This document shows, piece by piece, positions 6,104-9,512 of a DNA stretch of 64,000 nucleotides. The translations under genes were made by a program, and so were the position numbers. The notes beneath the pieces are model-generated. The model had not been told where the DNA came from and did not search any database. It was given only the letters and a program-made list of their open reading frames with translations. Numbering within the stretch: position 1 is the first letter of the stretch; every line of letters starts with the position of its first letter. The DNA is from Aquisalinus luteolus (GTDB lineage: Bacteria > Pseudomonadota > Alphaproteobacteria > Caulobacterales > Parvularculaceae). The stretch spans positions 872,001 through 936,000 of the forward strand of contig NZ_VCJR02000001.1 of NCBI RefSeq assembly GCF_009712425.2, given 5' to 3'.

Positions 6104-6661
6104 CTATTGTGACTTGAGCAAGGCTTCCAGCTTTTTCGAGACATCGTCACGGGCCTTGGCAGTCAGGAAATGGGTCGGCACCTTCATGAGGAAGACCTTG
6201 TGGCGGTATTGGCCCCGGGACCGGCTCTCGGATCGCACATAGTCCAGCAATTCCAGCGCATGGTCGCGGGTGAAGGCCCACAACAGCTTGCCGCGATGCT
6301 CGATCTGAAACAGGGCGTCATGCGGCCAATCCAGCAGGTGCTTGCGCCGTAGCCCACATGCGGGGCAAGCGATCACGCCCGCATCCAGTTTCGGGCCGAT
6401 GTTCCGGTTGCGGATCCAGTCGTCCAGCCTTTCTTCCCGCGGTAGCGGCGGTACGGTGAGCGGATCCTTGCGGTGCAGGCCGTGCCAGAGAATGGCGGCA
6501 TTCGCCTTGCCGCCGTGCGTTTCCACCCGTGCCGTGCTGAAATCGCGGGAATGCCGGAAGAAATCGATATTCTTTTTCCGGTTGATGAGCGCGATCTCGG
6601 CATGCTCGTAGCGGGCGTGCCCGCCGCATCGCGGGCAGGTCACATCAAGCGACGACGGCAT
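6104..6661 (-). CDS. Zinc-ribbon protein, unknown function
   Basis: A 185-residue soluble protein that I do not recognise by name. It carries two cysteine knuckles, CPRC at about residue 9 and CPAC at about residue 98, which together look like a split zinc ribbon. The remainder is rich in Arg, His and aromatic residues (for example SRDFSTARVETHGG and HDALFQIEHRGKLLWAF). The C-terminal part (about 120-180) has KVFLMKVPTHF and a helical tail. The CXXC pairs suggest metal binding and possibly nucleic-acid contact. It lies between DUF418 and the response-regulator gene, all on the minus strand; a 48-base gap separates it from the regulator, so read-through from the sensory pair is possible but unproven. 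Confidence 0.72.
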   Translation of the reverse strand: MPSSLDVTCPRCGGHARYEHAEIALINRKKNIDFFRHSRDFSTARVETHGGKANAAILWHGLHRKDPLTVPPLPREERLDDWIRNRNIGPKLDAGVIACPACGLRRKHLLDWPHDALFQIEHRGKLLWAFTRDHALELLDYVRSESRSRGQYRHKVFLMKVPTHFLTAKARDDVSKKLEALLKSQ

Positions 6662-6709: not shown

Positions 6710-7060
6710 TCAGGCAAGGATATCGTTCAGGGTCTTGATCAGTTCGGCATAGACGATCGGCTTGCGGAGCAGTTTCACTTCTTCTGCCCAGGGACCGATC
6801 TGGTCGGCTGAATACCCTGAAACCATTAGCAGCGGTACGCCCAGCTCCTGCAGGCGCTCGACCACTGGCCTTGCGCTTTCATCATGCAGATTGGCATCGA
6901 GCACTGCCCCGTCCAGTTGCACGCCGTCCTTCAGAAAGGTGAGGGCGGTTTCAACGCTTTGCGCCATATGCACGACCTCGAAGCCCGCCTGTGACAGCGT
7001 GGTCTCGATTTCCATGGCGATCAACGGTTCGTCATCGACGACTAGAATGCGGTGGCCCAT
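6710..7060 (-). CDS. Single-domain response regulator
   Basis: A 116-residue receiver domain with no output domain. The acidic pair is in VVDDEPLI, the phospho-acceptor Asp in GAVLDANL, the conserved Ser/Thr position in LMVSGYS, and the Lys in LLRKPI. The ATG at 7058-7060 overlaps the stop of the histidine kinase by one base (TGATG), so translation is coupled and the two are almost certainly partners. Stand-alone receivers next to HWE kinases are common in alphaproteobacteria and often pass phosphate to other proteins or act as phosphate sinks. A longer in-frame reading into the kinase gene exists but only adds sequence upstream of the receiver fold. Confidence 0.9.
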   Translation of the reverse strand: MGHRILVVDDEPLIAMEIETTLSQAGFEVVHMAQSVETALTFLKDGVQLDGAVLDANLHDESARPVVERLQELGVPLLMVSGYSADQIGPWAEEVKLLRKPIVYAELIKTLNDILA

Positions 7061-8559
7061 CAGGTCCTTCCTGTCTGTTCGGTCCTGTTCAGAACCCTGT
7101 CCAGCGGTGCGGACAGGGTCCATTTCAGTCCATCCGGGGCATAGCTGAGATCGACATCGCCGCTGACCGCATGAGCTGCCATGCGTTCGATCACGGTCCT
7201 GCCGAAGCCTGTCTTTTCCGGTGGGCTGACCATGGGCCCGTCTCGCTCCTGCCACGAGATGATGAATTTCTCGCCCTCATCGCCTATCTTTGTCGTCCAC
7301 GCAATAAGAACCGTGCCTGCCTCATTGCTGAGCGCACCATATTTCAACGCATTGGTCGATAATTCGTGCAGCGCCATGCCGATGCCTTGCGCGGCGGCGG
7401 GTGAAACGGTGATCGGATCGCCTTCCACGACCAGCCGGGAAAGCTGGCTGTCGCCCAGATGGCCCAGTTGCGAGGTAACGAGCTCGCGCATGCGCACGCC
7501 CTGCCAGTCGCCCTGAACGATCAGATCCTGCGACGCGGCGAGACCGGCAAGCCGGTTCGAGAGATCTTCTGCAAAGGTGGCAGGGTCGGACAGGCGCGAG
7601 GTCTGTCGCGCGACAGACTGCACGACAGTCAGCAGGTTCTTGGCACGGTGGTTCACCTCCGCCATCAACAGGTGGATGCGTTCCTCCTGTTCCTTGCGCA
7701 GGGTGATGTCGTGGGCGGCACCGATGATGTGGGTGACCTCGCCCTCGTTATTTCGGGTGTAGGCCATTTCCTGGCTCAGCAGCCAGACCCACTCGCCATC
7801 GCTTGCGCGCAGGCGGTATTCGAATTCCACGCTATCTTCAGTACCCAGCTTTTTCTGGTTCTCTATATGATCCTTAAAGCGCGCGAAATCATCTGGATGC
7901 ATGATTGTCGGAAACAATGCGGAGCCCATCGCCTGTATCTCGTCGGGCTCGTAACCGAGCGCAGAGACGACGTTGCGGTTGATCCATTCATTGCGCTGGT
8001 TTTCGATGTCATAGACGTACAGCATCGTCGGGGCGATATCGGTGATGCGCTTCAGGAAAGTTTGGCTCTCATTCAGGGCCTGCGTGCGCTGCTCGACGCG
8101 CAACTCCAGCTCTGCCCGTGCCGCTTCAAGCTCGGCCAGTGTTTTCTTGTGAGCGTCGATCTCGGCGCTCAGCTGCTCATTGACCAGTTGCAACTGGCTG
8201 GGCGAGGGGATCGCCAGCGCCTTGGGGATCAGCGGGAAGATGGCAATCGCCGTGATGACCGAGACGACCGCCGTCGCGCCCTTCACCCATCCTTCTGTCT
8301 CATAGATCGGCGCCCATAACGTGATCAGCCCGACGACATGTGTCAGCCCGCACATGGTAATGAAGGCGACGAACATCCATGCGAGGTTCTTCATCTCCAG
8401 GTCGCCACGTCGTTTGACGAAGATGAAGATCGCGACCGGAATGGCGAAATAGGCCAGTGCTGTCAGGATGTCCGACAGGCCATGAAGGCCGACCAGCCAT
8501 GGCTTCCACATCAGGCAATAGCCATGTGCGACATATGAATTGTGTAACATGCCTTCCAT
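7060..8559 (-). CDS. HWE-type histidine kinase with ethylene-receptor-like membrane domain
   Basis: A 499-residue membrane kinase. Residues 18-105 contain three hydrophobic helices with the pattern of ETR1-type ethylene sensors: SDILTALAYFAIP in helix 1, MCGLTHVVGL in helix 2 and TAVVSVITAI in helix 3. Asp30, Tyr37, Cys70 and His74 fall at the positions of the ETR1 Asp25, Tyr32, Cys65 and His69; the last two bind copper. A coiled coil (about 125-165) leads to a PAS domain (about 170-285), then an HWE/HisKA_2 kinase with the His in NHRAKNLL, the N-box HELSTNALKYG and the WQERDGP segment. The start is chosen because AGAGGAG precedes this ATG by seven bases. It is coupled to the adjacent receiver. 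Ethylene binding is a prediction, not shown. Confidence 0.9.
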   Translation of the reverse strand: MEGMLHNSYVAHGYCLMWKPWLVGLHGLSDILTALAYFAIPVAIFIFVKRRGDLEMKNLAWMFVAFITMCGLTHVVGLITLWAPIYETEGWVKGATAVVSVITAIAIFPLIPKALAIPSPSQLQLVNEQLSAEIDAHKKTLAELEAARAELELRVEQRTQALNESQTFLKRITDIAPTMLYVYDIENQRNEWINRNVVSALGYEPDEIQAMGSALFPTIMHPDDFARFKDHIENQKKLGTEDSVEFEYRLRASDGEWVWLLSQEMAYTRNNEGEVTHIIGAAHDITLRKEQEERIHLLMAEVNHRAKNLLTVVQSVARQTSRLSDPATFAEDLSNRLAGLAASQDLIVQGDWQGVRMRELVTSQLGHLGDSQLSRLVVEGDPITVSPAAAQGIGMALHELSTNALKYGALSNEAGTVLIAWTTKIGDEGEKFIISWQERDGPMVSPPEKTGFGRTVIERMAAHAVSGDVDLSYAPDGLKWTLSAPLDRVLNRTEQTGRT

Positions 8560-8756: not shown

Positions 8757-9512
8757 GTGACAGACCCCGCCCTCTCAATCCTCATACCGGTCTTCAATGA
8801 GGAAGCCTCGATCAGCGCGCTGTTGCAGGAAATTCTCGACAAGCAGCCGGCAGGTCTGGGCGCCGAGATCATCGTCATCAATGACGGCAGCGAGGATGGC
8901 ACTGCTGGGGCGGTGGAGGCGTTTGCCGCGAGCCACCCCGAAGTCCGCCTCATCACGCACCCGCAGCGCTCTGGCAAGAGCGCTGCCCTGCGCACTGGCG
9001 CGCTGGTGGGCAAGGGCCTATGGATGGGCACGCTCGACGGCGACGGGCAGGACGATCCGGCGGACCTGTTCGCCATGGTGGGCGAGGTGGATCTGTCGCG
9101 CATCGGCGAGGTTGGCCTCGTTGGCGGCGTGCGCCGCGAACGTACCGACGGCTCGTCGCGCAAATTCGCCTCCCGTTTTGCCAATGGCCTGCGTCAGAGC
9201 CTGTTGAAAGACGATTGCCCTGACACCGCCTGCGGCCTGAAATTGCTTCCGCGCGACCTGTTCCTGCAGTTTCCGTTCTTCGACGCGCTGCATAGATACC
9301 TGCCCGCCTTTACCCGGCATTTCGGGTTTGAGACCCGCTATGTGAAGGTCGACAACCGGCCGCGGCAGGCGGGCGTTTCAAAATACTCCAATTTCGGGCG
9401 TGCGGTCGCTGGCATTTTCGACCTGACAGGCGTCGTCTGGCTGATGCGCCGGACCAAGACGCCGGGCAGGGCCTTCGTCGCCGAGATGGCCATGAACAAA
9501 AAAGCAGGCTGA
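8757..9512 (+). CDS. Family 2 glycosyltransferase (DPM1-like)
   Basis: A 251-residue GT-A fold transferase of the polyprenyl-phosphate hexose synthase type. It opens with ALSILIPVFNEE and has the nucleotide-binding VINDGSEDGT and the metal-binding DGDGQDDP at about residue 95. There is no C-terminal pair of membrane helices, as in short DPM1-like enzymes. It probably transfers a sugar from a nucleotide sugar to undecaprenyl phosphate at the cytoplasmic membrane face. The start codon is GTG with AGGA seven bases upstream. The next gene, a GT39 transferase that would use such a lipid-linked sugar, starts five bases after the stop, so the two form a donor-making and donor-using pair. Confidence 0.9.
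   Translation: MTDPALSILIPVFNEEASISALLQEILDKQPAGLGAEIIVINDGSEDGTAGAVEAFAASHPEVRLITHPQRSGKSAALRTGALVGKGLWMGTLDGDGQDDPADLFAMVGEVDLSRIGEVGLVGGVRRERTDGSSRKFASRFANGLRQSLLKDDCPDTACGLKLLPRDLFLQFPFFDALHRYLPAFTRHFGFETRYVKVDNRPRQAGVSKYSNFGRAVAGIFDLTGVVWLMRRTKTPGRAFVAEMAMNKKAG

Follow-up and report, generated by a model that had tools for sequence, protein, structure and literature searches.

The window, a 64,000-nucleotide stretch of the Aquisalinus luteolus genome, contains a pair of adjoining genes that likely constitutes a two-component ethylene receptor. Plants sense the hormone ethylene through a copper-and-ethylene-binding pocket, and the plant receptor ETR1 carries a GAF domain, a kinase and a fused receiver. 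The protein encoded in the window shares with ETR1 the three-helix copper domain and its binding residues, and differs from it in having a PAS domain, an HWE kinase and a separate receiver. The locus is a real and intact two-component system of the ethylene-receptor type. The overall plan is already known from AzoEtr1 of Azospirillum brasilense, and the HWE kinase and the type of receiver are what differ. The coordinates of the features are summarized in Table 1.

Table 1. Features of the ethylene-receptor-like locus (positions in the window)
Feature	Residues or length	Position	Strand	Basis
Ethylene-receptor-like sensor HWE histidine kinase	499 aa	7060..8559	(-)	ORF, RBS, Pfam, Aquisalinus flavus ortholog
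ETR1_N ethylene-binding domain	22-117	8209..8496	(-)	Pfam, alignments, AlphaFold2 model
Long linker helix, membrane domain to PAS	120-175	8035..8202	(-)	Secondary structure of full-length model
PAS domain	about 193-286	7702..7983	(-)	PAS_3 E 9e-14, PAS_9 E 3e-7
HWE histidine kinase	301-499	7063..7659	(-)	HWE_HK match, motif scan
Stand-alone receiver	116 aa	6710..7060	(-)	Response_reg E 2e-9, ORF, alignment A5

The N-terminal region had been proposed to resemble ETR1, and hmmscan against Pfam bears this out: the ETR1_N profile (PF25487) matches with E 6.1e-34 and 116.6 bits, the cut-off being 27, and of its 97 positions 2-97 are covered. When residues 18-120 are aligned locally with AtETR1, whose letters were verified by published residue numbering alone, the score is 133, far above those of 2000 shuffled sequences with the hydrophobic pattern preserved (mean 29.7, SD 5.5, maximum 78). 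Homology to the ETR1-type domain is beyond doubt because of the Pfam match and the 50% identity to the domain of AzoEtr1. The span 8259-8508 given by the initial annotation corresponds to residues 18-101 and does fall on the ETR1_N protein, but it is slightly short of the full domain, 8496-8209.

Seven residues of AtETR1, D25, Y32, I35, P36, I62, C65 and H69, are needed for ethylene binding (PMC11819568), and the copper site of ETR1 is made up of Asp25, Cys65 and His69, as found by mutagenesis and XAS (PMC12643061). The alignment places D30, Y37, I40, P41, I67, C70 and H74 of the window protein at these seven positions with a constant offset of five, in agreement with the four equivalences first suggested (Asp30, Tyr37, Cys70 and His74), and K93 aligns with ETR1 K91. 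Of the 67 rows collected, among which are relatives and repeated copies of one locus, 48 retain all seven; the rows that do not keep the full set are mostly weak-scoring outliers or show conservative changes. Seven ETR1_N-like domains (L028, L029, L031, L034, L091, L092 and L094) are without at least one copper or ethylene residue, for example by replacement of Cys with Gly in L034 or with Thr in L028, and of His with Arg in L091 and L092. These may represent natural non-binding variants.

The AlphaFold2 model of the domain, built from an alignment of 27 sequences with plasmid-derived rows left out, has a mean pLDDT of 89.6 and consists of three predicted transmembrane helices at residues 20-50, 57-82 and 86-107. 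Helix 1 carries D30, Y37, I40 and P41, and helix 2 carries both C70 and H74, which are four residues and one turn apart, a placement that matches ETR1; a profile alignment placing Cys and His in different helices had been named in advance as grounds for rejecting the assignment, and the two residues share a helix. The full-length model is good through the linker helix and the PAS domain and weak in the kinase half, with a mean pLDDT of 71 and values below 50 at residues 311-373. Searches of PDB sequences with the domain and with its profile returned no significant relative, and a fold search of the PDB gave nothing below E 0.9. The sole PDB sequence match, to xanthorhodopsin with E 0.05, lacks credibility.

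The kinase gene starts with ATG at 8559, preceded by GGAG at 8570-8567, and its TGA ends at 7060. The PAS and HWE kinase modules expected behind the membrane domain were both recovered by hmmscan, HWE_HK (PF07536) matching residues 301-381 with E 7.9e-22. The motif scan identified the HRxKN box with His304 within EVNHRAKNLL, the N-box HELSTNALKYGAL, which contains HEL, and the WxE element as WQE at 436, so that profile and motifs characteristic of HWE kinases are all present. H304 is invariant in alignment A2.

The overlap of the kinase gene with that of a stand-alone receiver, also part of the initial annotation, amounts to one base, in which the receiver ATG and the kinase stop meet as TGATG. 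The same arrangement is observed in Aquisalinus flavus, with GTGATGGGA at the kinase end and the receiver ATG at 9500; translational coupling together with joint conservation, the mark of a two-component pair, is found in the window and in Aquisalinus. Asp55 of the receiver is likely the phospho-acceptor. The receiver is 38% identical to a FATGUY receiver that the genome itself encodes at G000:C1:1511989-1512318 beside another HWE kinase match, 33% identical to that of locus L088, and 27% identical to that of AzoEtr1; by these identities it is nearest to HWE-associated receivers. Among the NCBIfam models it matches PRK13435 and those of the PhyR type best, in each case below cut-off. The pairing of an HWE kinase with a single-domain receiver resembles the SdrG/MrrA general-stress systems, in which the FATGUY motif of the receiver reads PFxFATG(G/Y) (PMC5964349). 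In contrast, the window receiver has PLLMVSGY at the equivalent site, where PLLIVSGY is found in Aquisalinus flavus and PMAFATGS in L088 (alignment A5).

Bacterial ethylene receptors of demonstrated function include those of Synechocystis and Azospirillum (PMC11819568). SynEtr1 of Synechocystis, set beside the window protein by its published description, has the three-helix copper domain and binding residues in common with it and is also light-sensing (PMC11819568); as with ETR1, the PAS and HWE modules and the separate receiver set the window protein apart. The locus of AzoEtr1 (L035, 525 aa) was fetched from A. brasilense Sp7 for comparison. It shares with the window protein all seven residues, PAS, kinase and an overlapping downstream stand-alone receiver, and differs in that its kinase is of the HisKA plus HATPase_c type rather than HWE and that its receiver is only distantly similar. 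Since A. brasilense is an alphaproteobacterium whose receptor follows the same layout of ethylene-binding domain, PAS and kinase with a lone receiver overlapping it, and has been shown to bind 14C-ethylene (PMC11819568), the novelty that had been implied for an ethylene-type sensor in this class does not hold.

Among 20 relatives scanned whole, HisKA is the kinase class in 14, AzoEtr1 among them, and HWE_HK in six, three of which (L006, L014 and L020) fit HisKA_2 better. Clear fusions of the ethylene-binding domain to an HWE kinase are the window protein, its Aquisalinus flavus ortholog (L002), L088 (G777), L036 on the Blastomonas plasmid pBSY18_2, and L089. Like the window locus, L002 and L088 each carry a neighbouring lone receiver that is HWE-associated in type, a pairing that recurs in Aquisalinus and in this one further alphaproteobacterium; L088 differs in an extra PAS sequence and in a receiver that bears the AFATG motif and is encoded upstream. 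In the tree of the domain, the window and Aquisalinus flavus sequences group with L088 (support 97/87). L036 and L089, which are without a PAS match, form a separate branch (100/100). Because of these two branches the joining of the domain to an HWE kinase probably took place at least twice, a tentative reading as the deep forks of the tree are weak. A literature search, judged by titles and abstracts, found no paper describing an HWE kinase in an ethylene receptor.

Ethylene-binding domains have been noted in many proteobacteria (PMC7700396). ETR1_N matches occur in four of 62 genomes of the family Parvularculaceae, in 28 of 385 of the class (about 7% of the Alphaproteobacteria sampled) and in 29 of 398 of the phylum. 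Two family genomes, G019 (L004) and G042 (L005), carry ETR1_N on longer HisKA kinases, with two PAS stretches in L004; these domains branch apart from that of the window, which suggests either repeated acquisition of the domain by the family or the persistence of two versions of it. The genome-contig scan gave Aquisalinus flavus, a member of the Parvularculaceae, as the only match for the full-length protein. Its orthologs lie side by side, the kinase 85% and the receiver 84% identical, and most flanking genes are 83-95% identical and in the same order. Within the genus, the ETR1_N domain is present in two of six genomes. The other four have the neighbouring glycosyltransferase at 66-69% identity, and no kinase or receiver match was found in the ~6.7-7.1 kb upstream of it; the pair is accessory, as the domain is missing from these four genomes. 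Directly downstream of the receiver lies a gene of 185 aa (6104-6661, (-)) that weakly matches a zinc ribbon. In Aquisalinus flavus its neighbours are conserved, but of the gene itself there is only a remnant of 32 residues, 69% identical.

Two Novosphingobium conjugative plasmids (L097 and L098, 3980-5447 in both) encode a near-identical ETR1_N kinase that overlaps a lone receiver, the kinase being HisKA in the one scanned, and one copy lies near a Cas9 gene. These copies indicate that ethylene-receptor-like pairs travel on plasmids. The presence of such kinases on sphingomonad plasmids raised the possibility that the unit is mobile as a whole. This was rejected, as the copy on the Novosphingobium ES2-1 plasmid has a HisKA kinase, and the window unit itself resides on a 1.8-Mb contig with flanking gene order shared with Aquisalinus flavus.

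The initial annotation left open whether the domain would sense an alkene or copper, and the evidence best supports a membrane receptor of the ethylene type with Cu(I), ahead of a copper-only sensor. The three-helix domain, probably dimeric, would coordinate Cu(I) by C70 and H74, together with D30, and ethylene would bind at this site. Ethylene binding would alter the helix bundle, and by way of the linker helix and PAS the change would reach the HWE kinase and affect the phosphorylation of His304 in a direction that, like the downstream target, we infer rather than observe. Phosphate would then pass from His304 to Asp55 of the co-translated receiver, which is without an output domain and would have to act on other proteins, for example members of a phosphorelay or of the general stress response. 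A sensor of copper or of its redox state, for which ethylene is not the natural signal, would equally retain the copper ligands, and Pfam and NCBIfam matches around the locus included no gene clearly tied to ethylene or alkene metabolism. We consider such a sensor improbable: Y37, I40, P41 and I67 are retained too, and their equivalents are needed for ethylene binding by ETR1 (PMC11819568); family members tested in the cited literature bind ethylene; and Pfam matches around the locus revealed no copper-handling genes.

Cu(I) sites bind further pi-acceptor ligands besides ethylene, and Aquisalinus is not known to associate with plants, both of which would suit a domain with some other small ligand, unsaturated or gaseous, such as another alkene, CO or cyanide. 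We regard this as quite unlikely, given that the binding residues are identical to those of proven ethylene receptors and that a plant source is unnecessary, ethylene being formed photochemically from dissolved organic matter (PMC11819568). Least probable of all is that the membrane domain is a relic that only anchors the kinase and that the PAS domain, which could bind a ligand of its own, is the real sensor. Some ETR1_N-like domains elsewhere have lost ligands (L028, L031 and L094), whereas here all binding residues are retained, and the domain is 97% identical between the window and Aquisalinus flavus against 85% for the whole protein, which argues for stronger constraint on the membrane domain than on the rest.

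For the favoured reading, an ethylene receptor, the output may lie in the general stress response. Most HWE/HisKA2 kinases tested in Sphingomonas and Caulobacter phosphorylate FATGUY-type receivers and thereby feed this pathway (PMC5964349), which makes a route from ethylene to the general stress response plausible. The genome has eight HWE-type kinase matches and encodes a PhyR-like protein at G000:C2:273438-274178, a 258-aa frame scoring 177 bits, below the model cut-off of 240. By analogy, it is plausible that the window pair feeds the general stress response. The wider proposal, that in aquatic bacteria this response takes ethylene or another alkene as a direct input through an HWE kinase bearing the ethylene-binding domain and an SdrG/MrrA-related receiver, is tentative and rather doubtful.

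The full set of binding residues in this Parvularculaceae genome adds a lineage not known as a plant associate, and the HWE wiring shows the sensory domain fused to more than one class of kinase. Should the output of the HWE kinase in fact be the general stress response, that network, for which few signals have been defined, would count ethylene among them.
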